Source of the DNA: Erwinia sp. E_sp_B01_1
GTDB taxonomy: Bacteria; Pseudomonadota; Gammaproteobacteria; Enterobacterales; Enterobacteriaceae
NCBI RefSeq assembly: GCF_036865545.1
Contig: NZ_CP142208.1
Span: 3,596,001-3,660,000 of the forward strand
Length of the DNA: 64,000 nt
Reading direction: 5' to 3'
Below, piece after piece: positions 37,652 through 42,681 of this stretch. The notes below the pieces were generated by a model. The model was not told the origin of the DNA and ran no database searches. It was given only the letters and a program-made list of their open reading frames with translations. The position numbers and the translations under genes are program-made. How positions within the stretch are numbered: the first letter of the stretch is position 1; each line of letters opens with the position of its first letter.

Positions 37652-38431
37652 TCAGGAAGGCTTATCCGTAGCCTTGAACTCTCGCAGGAAACTGCCCCAC
37701 TTACGCTCGTAAAACGGGGTGATATGAGCGGTAAAAAAGTGGCTGATGCCCTTGTCGTTTTCCACCACTTCGCAAATATCCACCGGTTCATCTTCCAGTA
37801 GCGTATCCGTAGCCACGCTGCCTGCCGCCTGAATGATTGCATCAATATCACTGTCAGCCTCTATGCCTATCAGCAGGTTGGGCTGCTCTTCAGCGGATTC
37901 TTTGATATGCGCAACATAAGCCCGGCGAACCTGCTTGTATTTGGCAAACAATTGGGTCAGCGAAGCGATCATCTGAGCAGGTGGCTCTGCAATTTCTGAC
38001 AGCAGGAGTGACGTTCCCCCTTCCAGTACCGTCTGCTGGCTCAATGCACTGGCTCCTTCGCCTAACAGACTGGTTATTTCACGCGGTGAGAACTCTTTAC
38101 CTGACTCAAGTTTAGGGTTCAGAAACAGCGTTTCTCCCATCGTCATTTCAAACAAAGTGCGCACGGGCATAACAAGGAAGGGTTGTTCCCCGGTAACTGC
38201 CTGTTCCAGCGCAGTGAAAGAGGTAAAGAAAGGGATGATGCTGGTGCCATCATCTTTCTCCCAGTGCTGTAAATCTACCTGGGTTTCTGCCGTTACCGGC
38301 TGTTGTTCAGGGCTTTCACCCGGCACCCAAACGCTGGATTCCAGCAGCAGAGTGAAAAATTCAGGACGATGGGCAGGCTCAGTGGCCGCCAGTTTTAGCA
38401 CCTCTTCAAGGCGCTGGTTGGTTTCGTTCAT
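37652..38431 (-). CDS. sseB: SseB family protein
   Basis: Protein of 259 residues homologous to E. coli SseB, whose loss or gain alters serine sensitivity; the molecular function is unknown. The N-terminal SseB domain (about residues 1-120, NQRLEEVLKLAATEPAHRP, then IIPFFTSFTALEQAV) and a C-terminal enhanced-serine-sensitivity domain (IGIEADSDIDAIIQAAG) are both present. I chose the ATG at 38431 (MNETNQRL), matching the usual N-terminus; the frame is open for 25 further codons upstream. It lies 85 bases after pepB as in E. coli. Confidence 0.9.
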   Translation of the reverse strand: MNETNQRLEEVLKLAATEPAHRPEFFTLLLESSVWVPGESPEQQPVTAETQVDLQHWEKDDGTSIIPFFTSFTALEQAVTGEQPFLVMPVRTLFEMTMGETLFLNPKLESGKEFSPREITSLLGEGASALSQQTVLEGGTSLLLSEIAEPPAQMIASLTQLFAKYKQVRRAYVAHIKESAEEQPNLLIGIEADSDIDAIIQAAGSVATDTLLEDEPVDICEVVENDKGISHFFTAHITPFYERKWGSFLREFKATDKPS

Positions 38432-38516
38432 CAGCTCGATCCGCTTCACAAAATCAGGCGGGCTTACCCCGCCTCTGAGGACAATCGCACCATCTGCCCC
38501 CGACATAATTCTGCTG

Positions 38517-39800
38517 CTATTTCAGCAGCATATTGGCTACGGTACGCACTCCCAGGCCTGTAGCCCCGGCAGACCACTGATCCACAGCGCCTTTACGGTA
38601 GGTCGCAGAGCAGTCGATATGCAGCCAGCCCTTCTGATAATTTTTCACAAAATGGGAGAGGAAGGCTGCTGCGGAACTGGCTCCGGCGGTGTGGGAAGGC
38701 GCAGCGATGTTGTTCAGATCGGCAAAATTCGACGGCAGATAGCTGCGGTGGAATTCCGCCAGTGGCAGACGCCAGAAAGGTTCGTTTTCACCGGTGGCAC
38801 TGCTCATCAGCGACTGGGCCAGTTCGTCATCAAAACTGAACAGCGCATGGTAATCATTCCCCAGTGCCGTTTTAGCCGCACCGGTCAGAGTGGCCGCATC
38901 AATCAGCAGCTCAGGGTTCTGCTCGCTGGCATCAATCAGACCATCAGCCAGCACCAGGCGGCCTTCCGCATCCGTGTTCATCACTTCCACGGTTTTGCCA
39001 TTACGGTAGCTGATGATATCGCCCAGACGGAAAGCATTGCCGCTGACCATATTGTCGGCGCAGCAGAGGTACAGTTTAACGCGTTTGGTCAGTCCACGGC
39101 TGATAGCCAGAGCCAGGGAGCCGGTCAGCGTGGCGGCACCGCCCATATCTGACTTCATGGAGTCCATTGAGCCGCTGGGTTTCAGGCTGTAACCACCGGT
39201 ATCGAAGGTGATGCCTTTGCCAACAAGGCAGGCAAACACCGGCGCTTTTTCATCTCCGGTAGGGTTGAAATCCAGCGCGAGCAGAGCCGGGCTGCGGGTT
39301 GAACCCCGGCCAACGGTATGCAGGCCCATATAGCCCTGCTTACGCAGATCTTCGCCTTTGGTGATACGGTAGCTGACGTTGTTACTGCCCACGCCACTCA
39401 GCAAATCTACCGCACGCTGCGCCAGTTGTTCCGGGCTCAGATCTTCTGCCGGAAGGTTGATGGTGTCGCGCACCCAGTTGATGATCTTCATCCGGCTGTC
39501 GAACTCAGCGCGGTCGCTGTCATTCAAAGGTGCCCACTCCACGGTGCGCTCGCCTTTCGGGCTGCGATAGCCCTGCCAGAATGCCCAGCTTTTTTCTAAG
39601 TCCCAGTCGCCGCTCAGGCTGACATGACGGATGCCTTGTGCATCAATTTTTCGCGCGGCACGCTGAATAGTGGTCAAAGCATCGCCGCCGGTCAGATGAA
39701 TAGTCATGCCGCTGTTGTTGCTGGTCAGGGTCGCTTTTTCGCCCCAACGTGCGTCTGCCGCTGCCGTTGACAGCGTTATTTTCATTGGTGTGGTTGTCAT
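38517..39800 (-). CDS. pepB: Aminopeptidase B PepB
   Basis: Leucyl-aminopeptidase-family (M17) metallopeptidase of 427 residues, the E. coli length, that removes N-terminal residues from small peptides and takes part in Cys-Gly turnover. The catalytic signature [13 protein letters not shown] is near residue 275. The metal and catalytic lysine region is [29 protein letters not shown] near 195-225. AAAGGAG precedes the ATG. In E. coli iscX lies immediately upstream and the fdx-hscA-hscB-iscA-iscU genes before that. Here the upstream neighbour is iscS, separated only by a terminator and about 165 bases, so pepB must have its own promoter. Confidence 0.97.
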
Positions 39801-39904
39801 CGACTGGCTCCTTTAGTAGGTAAAAAAGTGCTCCGTCCTGAAAACGGTCGGTCACTACAATAAACCTTTATTGGCTTTCGTCTAACCAGACTAACAGAAA
39901 TCAT

Positions 39905-39934
39905 GTAAAACGGGCTGAATGTGGATTCAGCCCG
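39905..39934 (-). terminator. iscRS intrinsic terminator
   Basis: Minus-strand perfect 10-bp stem CGGGCTGAAT/ATTCAGCCCG (loop CCAC) followed by TTTTA, starting 33 bases past the iscS stop. It closes the shortened isc transcript directly after iscS. Confidence 0.88.
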
Positions 39935-39966
39935 TGGGGTCATTCTGCGGTCATAAGCCCGAAGGC

Positions 39967-41172
39967 TCAGGAATGGGTGGCGGCTTTAAGACCGGATTTT
40001 TTGAACGCCAGCCATTCCGGGGAGAGCTCGCGCAGACGGGCAATCGACTTCTGTACCAGTTGAATGGCGTAATCGATCTCCTCTTCGGTGGTAAAACGCC
40101 CTAAAGAGAAACGCAAAGAACTGTGTGCCAGCTCATCGTTCAGCCCCAATGCCCGCAGGACGTAGGAGGGTTCAAGACTGGCGGAGGTACAGGCAGACCC
40201 GGAGGAGAGAGCCAGATCCTTCAGCGTCATGATCAGGGATTCACCGTCAACGTAGTTGAAGCTGATGTTAAGAATATTGGGCGCGCCTGCCACAAGATCG
40301 CCATTAAGGTAGACTTCCTCAATAGCACTGAAGCCGGTCCACAGCTTATTTCGCAGCGCACTAAGCCTGGCCATTTCTTCCGCCATCTCTGCTTTTGCTA
40401 TACGAAAGGCTTCGCCCATCCCGACAATCTGATGCACCGGCAGCGTGCCGGAACGCATGCCGCGCTCGTGCCCGCCACCGTGAATCTGAGCTTCCAGACG
40501 GATCCGCGGCTTACGACGCACATATAATCCACCAATCCCTTTGGGGCCGTAAATTTTGTGGGCGGAAAAAGAGGCGAGATCTACCGGCAGTTGACTGACA
40601 TCAAAGGGTAATTTTCCGACGCTTTGCGTGGCATCAACATGGAAGAGGATCCCGCGCGACTGGCAGATTTCCGCAATTTTAGCGATATCCTGCACCACAC
40701 CCGTTTCATTGTTCACATGCATGATGGAAACCAGAATCGTGTCGTCGCGCATGGCGGCCTGCAATTTATCAAGGTCAATGACGCCGTTGCTTTGCGGCGC
40801 AAGGTAAGTTACCTCAAAGCCTTCACGCTCCAGCTGAATACAGGTATCCAGAACCGCTTTATGTTCAGTCTGACTGGTGATGATATGCCTGCCCTTCTCA
40901 CGGTAGAAGTGGGCAGCGCCTTTTATGGCGAGATTATCGGATTCGGTTGCGCCGGAGGTAAACACTATTTCACGGGGATCGGCCCCGATAAGCTCAGCGA
41001 CCTGATTACGGGCAATATCCACAGCTTCTTCGGCCTGCCAGCCAAACCGGTGTGAGCGGGAAGCGGGATTGCCAAAGGTGCCGTCCAAGGTCAGGCACTT
41101 GATCATTTGCGCGGCTACGCGAGGATCGGCAGGAGTTGTTGCGGCGTAATCGAAGTAGATCGGTACTTTCAT
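39967..41172 (-). CDS. iscS: Cysteine desulfurase IscS
   Basis: PLP-dependent enzyme that takes sulfur from cysteine as a persulfide for Fe-S clusters, tRNA thiolation and cofactors; 401 residues from the ATG at 41172, which GGAG precedes and which matches the family start [14 protein letters not shown]. The PLP lysine lies in [15 protein letters not shown] near residue 206, and the active cysteine loop [21 protein letters not shown] near 328 is intact. The last 15 or so residues ([15 protein letters not shown]) are unlike the E. coli tail ending in SIEWAHH, a region reported to contact IscU. No iscU, iscA, hscBA or fdx follows, so its main roles here may be TusA/ThiI-type sulfur transfer (inference). 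Confidence 0.95.
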
Positions 41173-41289: not shown

Positions 41290-41787
41290 TCAGGCACGCA
41301 GATTGACGTTAATGGTTTCATGCACGCGGCCAGAAGAGACGCGGGCTTTCTCAGTATTGTTCTGACGGTCGGCCACATCCAGGATCTCCTGGTTGTTCAC
41401 CAGCTCTGCCAGCGTAATGTTATTCAGGAAGTCGCTGATACGCTCACTCAGGTCACGCCACAGCACGTGCGTCAGGCAGCGCTCGCCGCCCTGGCAGCCT
41501 TCTTTGCCCTGACATTTAGTCGCATCCACAGACTCATCAACAGCGGTAATTACCGCGCCGACAGCAATCGCATCAGAGCTTTTACCCAACAGATAACCAC
41601 CACCCGGACCACGAACGCTGGCTACTAGACCGTTTTTACGCAGGCGTGAGAACAGCTGCTCCAGATAAGAGAGAGAGATGCCCTGGCGCTCTGAAATATC
41701 AGCTAACGGCACCGGCCCTTCGTGAGAGTGAAGTGCAACGTCGAGCATAGCAGTAACAGCATAACGGCCTTTGGATGTCAGTCTCAT
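41290..41787 (-). CDS. iscR: Iron-sulfur cluster regulator IscR
   Basis: Rrf2-family transcription factor that senses Fe-S status and represses its own operon when carrying a [2Fe-2S] cluster; 165 residues. The winged HTH is at residues 1-80 ([40 protein letters not shown]). The cluster motif [19 protein letters not shown] has all three cysteines and the histidine ligand, so it can be cluster-bound. I chose the ATG at 41787 over an upstream in-frame start because it is the family start. It is followed by iscS after 117 bases. Three IscR-like sites lie upstream. Confidence 0.96.
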
Positions 41788-41850: not shown

Positions 41851-41925
41851 ATTCCCGAGTAAATTGGTCAAGTATTTAACCTAGTAAAACACTCAACTAT
41901 TTAACCAAGTGTTTTACTCAAGTAT
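41851..41925 (-). promoter_or_regulatory. iscR promoter with three abutting IscR type 1-like sites
   Basis: Read on the minus strand, three consecutive 25-bp units (41925-41901, 41900-41876, 41875-41851) each begin ATAC/GTTGA and follow the IscR type 1 pattern ATASYYGACTRWWWYAGTCRRSTAT. By my count the promoter-proximal unit matches 22 of 25 positions and the other two 20 of 25. The proximal unit contains a TTGACC -35, with CAGACT 17 bases further as a possible -10. Confidence 0.75.
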
Positions 41926-41952: not shown

Positions 41953-42681
41953 TTACTTTTCGCCTTTGGGCTTTTCCAGCGAAGAGAGCATTCCACGCAG
42001 AATGTTCAGTTCATCACGCTCCGGACGTGCCCGGGTGTAAAGGCGGCGCATTTTGCTCATCACCTGCCCCGGGCTGCCTTCACGGATAAAGCCGCTGTTT
42101 ACCATCATCTGTTCCATGTGCTGGTAGAAGCGCTCGAGATCGTCAACCAGGGGATAAGGTGACTCTTCGTAGTCCTGCTGCGCGGTCTCCTGCGACTGCA
42201 GAAACGCCATACGCACTTCATAAGCGATAATCTGAACCGCCATCGCCAGGTTCAGCGAGCTGTATTCCGGGTTAGCAGCGATTGCCACATGATAATGACA
42301 CTTCTGCAGTTCTTCGTTAGTCAGCCCCACGCGCTCGCGGCCAAACACCAGTGCAACTGGCGCCTGCTGCCCTTCCTGCACGCTCTTGATCCCGCACTCG
42401 CGAGGATCGAGCATCGGCCAGGGCAGTGAACGGGAGCGGGCACTTGTTCCCACCACCAGACTACAACCTGTCAGGGCTTCATCGAGGGTATCGACAATCT
42501 TCGCTTCACCAATGACATCGCTGGCGCCCGCAGCCAGAGCGATGGCCTGAGAGTCAGGCTTAACCAGAGGGTTAACCAGATAAAGGTTGGTCAGGCCCAT
42601 GGTTTTCATCGCGCGAGCGACGGAACCCATGTTGCCGGTGTGAGAGGTTTCAACCAGCACAATACGGATGTTTTGCAGCAT
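41953..42681 (-). CDS. trmJ: tRNA (cytidine/uridine-2'-O-)-methyltransferase TrmJ
   Basis: SPOUT-class methyltransferase of 242 residues that makes the 2'-O-methyl group at position 32 of several tRNAs. The trefoil-knot SAM site is spread over [22 protein letters not shown] at the N-terminus, [14 protein letters not shown] near residue 115 and [17 protein letters not shown] near 145. A C-terminal helical dimerisation/tRNA extension follows. It precedes iscR in the same direction with 165 bases between, and is divergent from suhB as in E. coli. Confidence 0.96.

Follow-up and report, generated by a model that had tools for sequence, protein, structure and literature searches.

In Erwinia sp. 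E_sp_B01_1, the isc locus consists of iscR and iscS alone. The SUF system appears to have taken over Fe-S cluster assembly while IscS would survive as the sulfur donor for tRNA thiolation, a reading to which we assign a probability of roughly 0.87 from gene content and sequence comparison. The loss of the other six isc genes is true, general and recurrent; it is ordinary in kind, unexpected in this group, and has left an unusually clean record of partner-specific decay and of frataxin co-loss.

The isc locus and the gene content of the genome

The window, the whole stretch of 64,000 nucleotides that was analysed, covers positions 3596001-3660000 of a genome closed in one contig of 4803726 bases (4.80 Mb). 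Five minus-strand genes define the locus, each scoring above its own curated NCBIfam equivalog cut-off: trmJ (41953-42681; NF011694, 493 bits) on the left flank, iscR (41290-41787; NF008110, 331 bits), iscS (39967-41172; TIGR02006, 706 bits against a cut-off of 643.2), pepB (38517-39800; NF003450, 752 bits against 437) on the right flank, and sseB (37652-38506; NF008624, 445 bits) beyond it. The preliminary description had read this as a locus cut down to iscR-iscS between flanks in ancestral order, with pepB following iscS after 166 bases. All of this was borne out by the window and, for the six missing genes, by family searches of the whole genome. The 166-bp junction (39801-39966, minus strand, read directly) occupies the site of iscU-iscA-hscB-hscA-fdx-iscX in relatives. 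An IscR type-1-like site lies upstream of iscR (41851-41875, minus strand) and agrees with the consensus at 22 of 25 positions, scored without a shuffle control.

The junction had been described as holding a terminator and the pepB promoter region. A strong hairpin with a short T run 3' of iscS, at about 39910-39935 on the minus strand, is a probable terminator (81-nt fold of -29.8 kcal/mol, z -4.45). A consensus pattern scan, in which this hairpin is unlisted, gave a weaker terminator-like site at 39833-39847 and zero promoter-like sites in the junction, so the promoter reading is unsupported. A tblastn search of the window junction (E 0.05), using the six proteins of as many as nine intact loci, recovered no remnant. 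The earlier statement that none exists therefore holds for this junction but fails for some other genomes of the genus.

Across the whole genome, there were 0 matches to IscU (PF01592), HscB (HscB_C), IscX and the isc-type ferredoxin (Fdx_isc), and nothing above cut-off for IscA or HscA. The single sub-cut-off HscA match was taken as DnaK, its score being close to that of the second match, likewise taken as DnaK, in IscU-bearing genomes. Two A-type proteins were found, one of them SufA, as opposed to three in 17/17 IscU-bearing genomes. The genome thus has neither the IscU scaffold nor the HscA-HscB chaperones nor Fdx, and the full-genome search for these proteins and IscA, which the preliminary description had proposed, disclosed no translocated copy. 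The companion search for sufABCDSE found the operon complete, with sufA, B, C, D, S and E in a single run of genes and all six above their equivalog cut-offs. The intact operon fits the suggested reliance on the Suf route, in which SUF would be doing the work.

Spread and number of the losses

IscU (PF01592) was absent from 35 of the 36 genomes searched in the window's genus and was matched in all 24 genomes taken from the order's other families, in one of them weakly. A survey of 294 genomes of the family gave a PF01592 match in 207 and none in 87. Outside the genus, 24 of the 83 PF01592-negative genomes are at least 3 Mb, and many of the others are small and probably belong to symbionts. Three of the 207 matching genomes (G192, G349 and G268) gave a weaker PF01592 match (E about 1e-46), probably to a NifU-type protein; we counted them as IscU-less because the match comes without HscA above cut-off. 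Among 80 named loci, eight show iscS and then pepB without the six genes, including those of Erwinia persicina, Pantoea anthophila, P. stewartii and Lonsdalea quercina. The operon is retained in Mixta and in Erwinia sp. OLFS4, the latter without an iscX match, and the loss extends to other Enterobacterales, namely Pantoea, Lonsdalea and further genera. It is thus neither strain-specific nor local but nearly genus-wide and recurrent.

Some operons depart from the usual content in other ways. In L018, G089 (probably the genome of L018), G123 and G240, the isc operon encodes IscU, HscA and Fdx, but IscX went unmatched. In two gammaproteobacterial metagenome-assembled genomes (L077 and L092), iscA directly follows iscS, with no iscU matched and hscBA present.

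A tree of the flanking proteins TrmJ, IscR, PepB and SseB (142 rows, 1090 columns) scattered the IscU-less rows. The FastTree topology implies nine losses if loss is irreversible, and its row set requires seven changes by parsimony; the well-supported branches of a 35-row tree, the output of which warns of two long rows, cannot be reconciled with fewer than six changes. The count varies because it depends on the tree, and our best estimate is that ISC was lost six to nine times.

Remnants were found in several junctions. Genus g158 shows three states: the operon is complete in G284, the iscS-pepB interval of G349 contains an hscA piece, and in that of G192 nothing was recognised. In four genomes of the window's own genus (G020, G031, G018 and G024), a remnant of iscX persists in the iscS-pepB interval (E 3e-8 to 2e-10), which is direct evidence of in-place deletion. 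These four form a separate branch, and their loss may be a separate one because the position of that branch relative to the window's is unsure. Eight further junctions gave weaker matches to iscX or hscB (E 0.013 to 3e-4). The clean deletion first read from the window fits these remnants in relatives and the lack of a translocated copy, and the comparison of junctions among Erwinia, Pantoea and relatives that had been suggested revealed recurrent loss, in some cases recent enough for remnants to persist.

The IscU-bearing L199 (G284, of g158), related to genomes with a recent loss, sits on a long branch (0.35) in the isc gene tree, and the end of its IscS differs slightly, as would fit the onset of decay. 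L115 (G097, 2.4 Mb) has, roughly 3.5 kb beyond iscS and close to the position expected for fdx, a 117-bp fdx-like piece with two stops (G097:C1:849002-849118; E 5.9e-4).

Co-loss of frataxin and changes in the retained IscS and IscR

We counted partner proteins above cut-off in 80 genomes, 63 IscU-less and 17 IscU-bearing. CyaY, the bacterial frataxin, was found in 0/63 of the former and 17/17 of the latter, as were HscB, Fdx and IscA, each with the same counts. IscX was found in 0/63 and 14/17, and HscA, in a slightly different genome set, in 0/61 and 19/19. The cyaY gene is not linked to isc: in G030 their positions are 3.87 Mb (cyaY) and 1.12 Mb (iscU). SufB was present in 70/70 IscU-less and 9/10 IscU-bearing genomes. 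The exception, G073 of the same family, is the opposite case, with IscU and HscA present and no SufB match.

IscS itself (E at most 1e-100) was found in 71 of 79 IscU-less genomes, the eight without it being only 0.3-0.6 Mb in size; the curated IscS cut-off was passed by only 32 of the 80 genomes of the same survey. In a second survey IscS was present in 33/33 genomes, 32 of them above cut-off. TusA exceeded its cut-off in all 63 IscU-less genomes of at least 1.8 Mb, in none of the eight small genomes without IscS, and in one of seven further small genomes with IscS. Since five of these seven gave no TusA match, TusA is not the sole possible reason for keeping IscS.

We compared IscS between 58 IscU-less and 82 IscU-bearing rows; the latter for the most part represent each genus by one or a few rows, drawn from among the matches listed, the genomes of the HscA search and the named loci. 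K206 and C328 were unchanged in 58/58 and 82/82 rows, as were H104, D180 and Q183, which we take to be active-site residues. According to passages of PMC2854127, IscS passes sulfur directly to TusA and ThiI without IscU, and its C-terminal helix helps to bind IscU. The TusA-side residues W45, E49, D52, R55, R220, R237 and M239 were likewise invariant in both sets, and D65 was retained in 57 of the 58 IscU-less rows. All 82 IscU-bearing rows have 23 residues after R381, with EW among the last eight; EW occurs there in only one IscU-less row, L204, a recent loss. In the window, a diverged tail (39967-40029, minus strand) replaces the conserved EW-type end, as judged from the row comparison and the contact region given in the relevant passage of PMC2854127. 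R112, placed opposite ferredoxin by a docking model (partner contacts taken from passages of PMC2854127 and PMC3750173), is R in 82/82 IscU-bearing rows and changed in 57/58 IscU-less rows.

The window's IscS belongs to the IscS subfamily by its equivalog score, K206 and C328. It retains the TusA-contact residues and lacks the C-terminal IscU-binding tail; among the sites examined, it differs in the tail and by R112I, K101Q and E309D. All ten of its published CyaY/IscX sites are unchanged, so the decay there characterises the group and not yet this strain. Its IscS is 84.0% identical to that of Trabulsiella, versus 92.5% for that of G030, while the flanks give 75.2% for both.

The IscS core (residues 1-375) accumulated 387 inferred changes per unit of flanking-gene branch in loss lineages versus 98 in isc-bearing lineages, a side that takes in outgroup branches, and thus evolved about four times faster. 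At the published Fdx sites, 52 changes fell in loss lineages and 3 in isc-bearing lineages (permutation among slow sites, p 0.0004). The corresponding counts were 54 and 1 at the CyaY/IscX sites (p 0.010), 44 and 0 at the ThiI sites, the footprint of which overlaps that of CyaY (p 0.038), and 1 and 0 at the TusA sites. Change at the IscU contact sites 309-316 and 347 alone was not significantly enriched (p 0.10). Six CyaY-side sites chosen after seeing the residue table gave 68 and 1; our conclusions rest on the full published sets, with weaker p-values than those of the six sites first picked. The Fitch counts are approximate because some changes at 309 and 112 were placed on IscU-bearing inner branches, even though all 82 such rows agree. 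Across six independent row pairs, R112 tracked the loss in 5.8 on average and the tail in 5.6, never reversed (median sign test p 0.031 each); K101 tracked it in 5.4 and R116 in only 3.5, and R220 and C328 differed in none. By this comparison, the retained IscS carries the footprint of the loss at its Fdx and CyaY/IscX sites and in its tail.

IscR, by comparison, has C92, C98, C104 and H107, presumably its cluster ligand positions, in 58/58 IscU-less and 82/82 IscU-bearing rows, including the window, and its rate hardly differs between the two (median identity 0.821 versus 0.791; flanks 0.753 versus 0.743). Upstream of sufA, an IscR type-2-like match of 18/23 and a Fur-like match of 15/19 to the consensus sequences exceed the shuffled 95% values of 17 and 13, and IscR may thus control suf here. 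Altered control of the suf promoter after the loss was considered and set aside: the IscR type-2-like and Fur-like scores, the latter 12-18/19 in 13 IscU-less and 13-16 in 8 IscU-bearing genomes, are too weak and the genomes too few.

Explanations and comparison with known systems

In the ancestor of the Erwinia lineage, iscUA-hscBA-fdx-iscX would have been deleted in place and cyaY lost elsewhere, leaving sufABCDSE as the sole general Fe-S assembly system. IscS would have been retained for its supply of sulfur to TusA, and perhaps to ThiI, in tRNA thiolation; IscR would have stayed as an Fe-S-sensing regulator of iscRS and probably of suf. Freed from IscU, Fdx, CyaY and IscX, IscS would then have gathered changes on the surfaces of those partners. 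The gene losses, their recurrence, the remnants and the site pattern are supported directly, as is the retention of IscS, TusA, SufB and the ligands of IscR. That SUF carries all clusters and is essential, and that tRNA thiolation accounts for the retention of IscS, we infer from them. We regard it as fairly probable that ISC was dropped repeatedly, with frataxin each time, and that decay of the surfaces for IscU, Fdx, CyaY and IscX reduced IscS to a desulfurase for tRNA thiolation.

The missing genes could in principle have been moved elsewhere or lost from view through a misjoined contig. The genome is closed and holds none of the six families above cut-off, same-genus genomes carry remnants in place, and an assembly artefact is excluded because iscS is followed by pepB without the six genes in many other assemblies; we therefore treat translocation and assembly error as ruled out, with a probability close to nil. 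A different account would make the losses older and less numerous, with horizontal transfer returning isc to the IscU-bearing Erwinia, to Mixta and to others. Change counts alone cannot separate gain from loss, and the clade tests, the p-values of which are optimistic because the groups were named after seeing a tree, did not reject a single loss for Erwinia and Pantoea (p 0.192) or for the L119/L124/L204/L205 and g123/g49/g59/g134 groups together (p 0.086), but did reject one uniting Erwinia/Pantoea with Lonsdalea (p 0.0027), Lonsdalea with the L119/L124/L204/L205 group (p 6e-45), and the g158 group with its neighbours (p 0.026). The IscU-bearing Erwiniaceae group together as a single clade of the isc gene tree (support 1.0), next to other enterobacterial isc genes; their isc genes appear to sit where descent would put them and occupy their native place. 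The hscA piece of L204 and the iscX pieces of the four same-genus genomes further indicate that native copies were deleted. Regain by transfer is thus unsupported by the gene tree and quite improbable.

The role of the lone IscS leaves more room for doubt. It might act as a secondary sulfur donor for SUF or tune SUF expression rather than serve mainly tRNA thiolation, and a lone IscS does affect suf expression in Mycobacterium tuberculosis, as PMC10848736 reports. The TusA-side residues were nevertheless retained while the IscU-binding tail decayed along with the sites for Fdx and for CyaY/IscX, and sufS and sufE are intact in this genome, so we consider such a role unlikely and favour a desulfurase kept for tRNA thiolation.

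Most bacteria have one Fe-S system, most often SUF, according to PMC11559095. The window's genome would resemble these SUF-only bacteria in having SUF as its only general assembly system, but differs in that the state was reached secondarily, in a group with model species in which ISC is the housekeeping system. A closer likeness is M. tuberculosis, where ISC is cut down to iscS beside a complete SUF (PMC10848736). Unlike there, iscR is retained, and close relatives still possess both ISC and SUF. The loss has also happened repeatedly here, some of it so recently that remnants survive, and IscS has decayed in a partner-specific way. We found no description of ISC loss in Erwinia, Pantoea and relatives in titles and abstract openings, within incomplete journal coverage, nor in the passages seen of PMC8593673, PMC9035817, PMC10946135 and PMC2682760; a broad ISC/SUF survey may tabulate it. 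SUF with a lone IscS is thus already known elsewhere, while the repeated loss together with frataxin and the interface-specific decay look new.

In a survey of 2742 genomes, CyaY occurred only with IscU (passages of PMC4440780), as it does here. What the present comparison adds to that broad survey is that the unlinked cyaY is missing in every tested IscU-less close relative while IscS and SUF stay. This absence bears on the open question of the role of bacterial frataxin. CyaY was reported in 2024 to bind and inhibit SufS in E. coli (passages of PMC11446229), and the absence bears likewise on the claim that it also regulates SUF: genomes with SUF alone manage without CyaY. If our reading is true, frataxin would have no selected role outside ISC in these bacteria. 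The loss lineages would likewise offer a natural mutagenesis map of the partner sites of IscS, separating through natural variation the residues that serve IscU, Fdx and CyaY from the ones that TusA requires.

Escherichia coli is the textbook case in which ISC is the housekeeping and SUF the stress system. The window shares with its iscRSUA-hscBA-fdx-iscX operon the order trmJ-iscR-iscS ... pepB-sseB and the identity of the genes, but six of the eight genes are gone and the C-terminal tail of IscS is lost. Whole genera of the order to which E. coli belongs would thus have reversed the roles of ISC and SUF, probably more than once.
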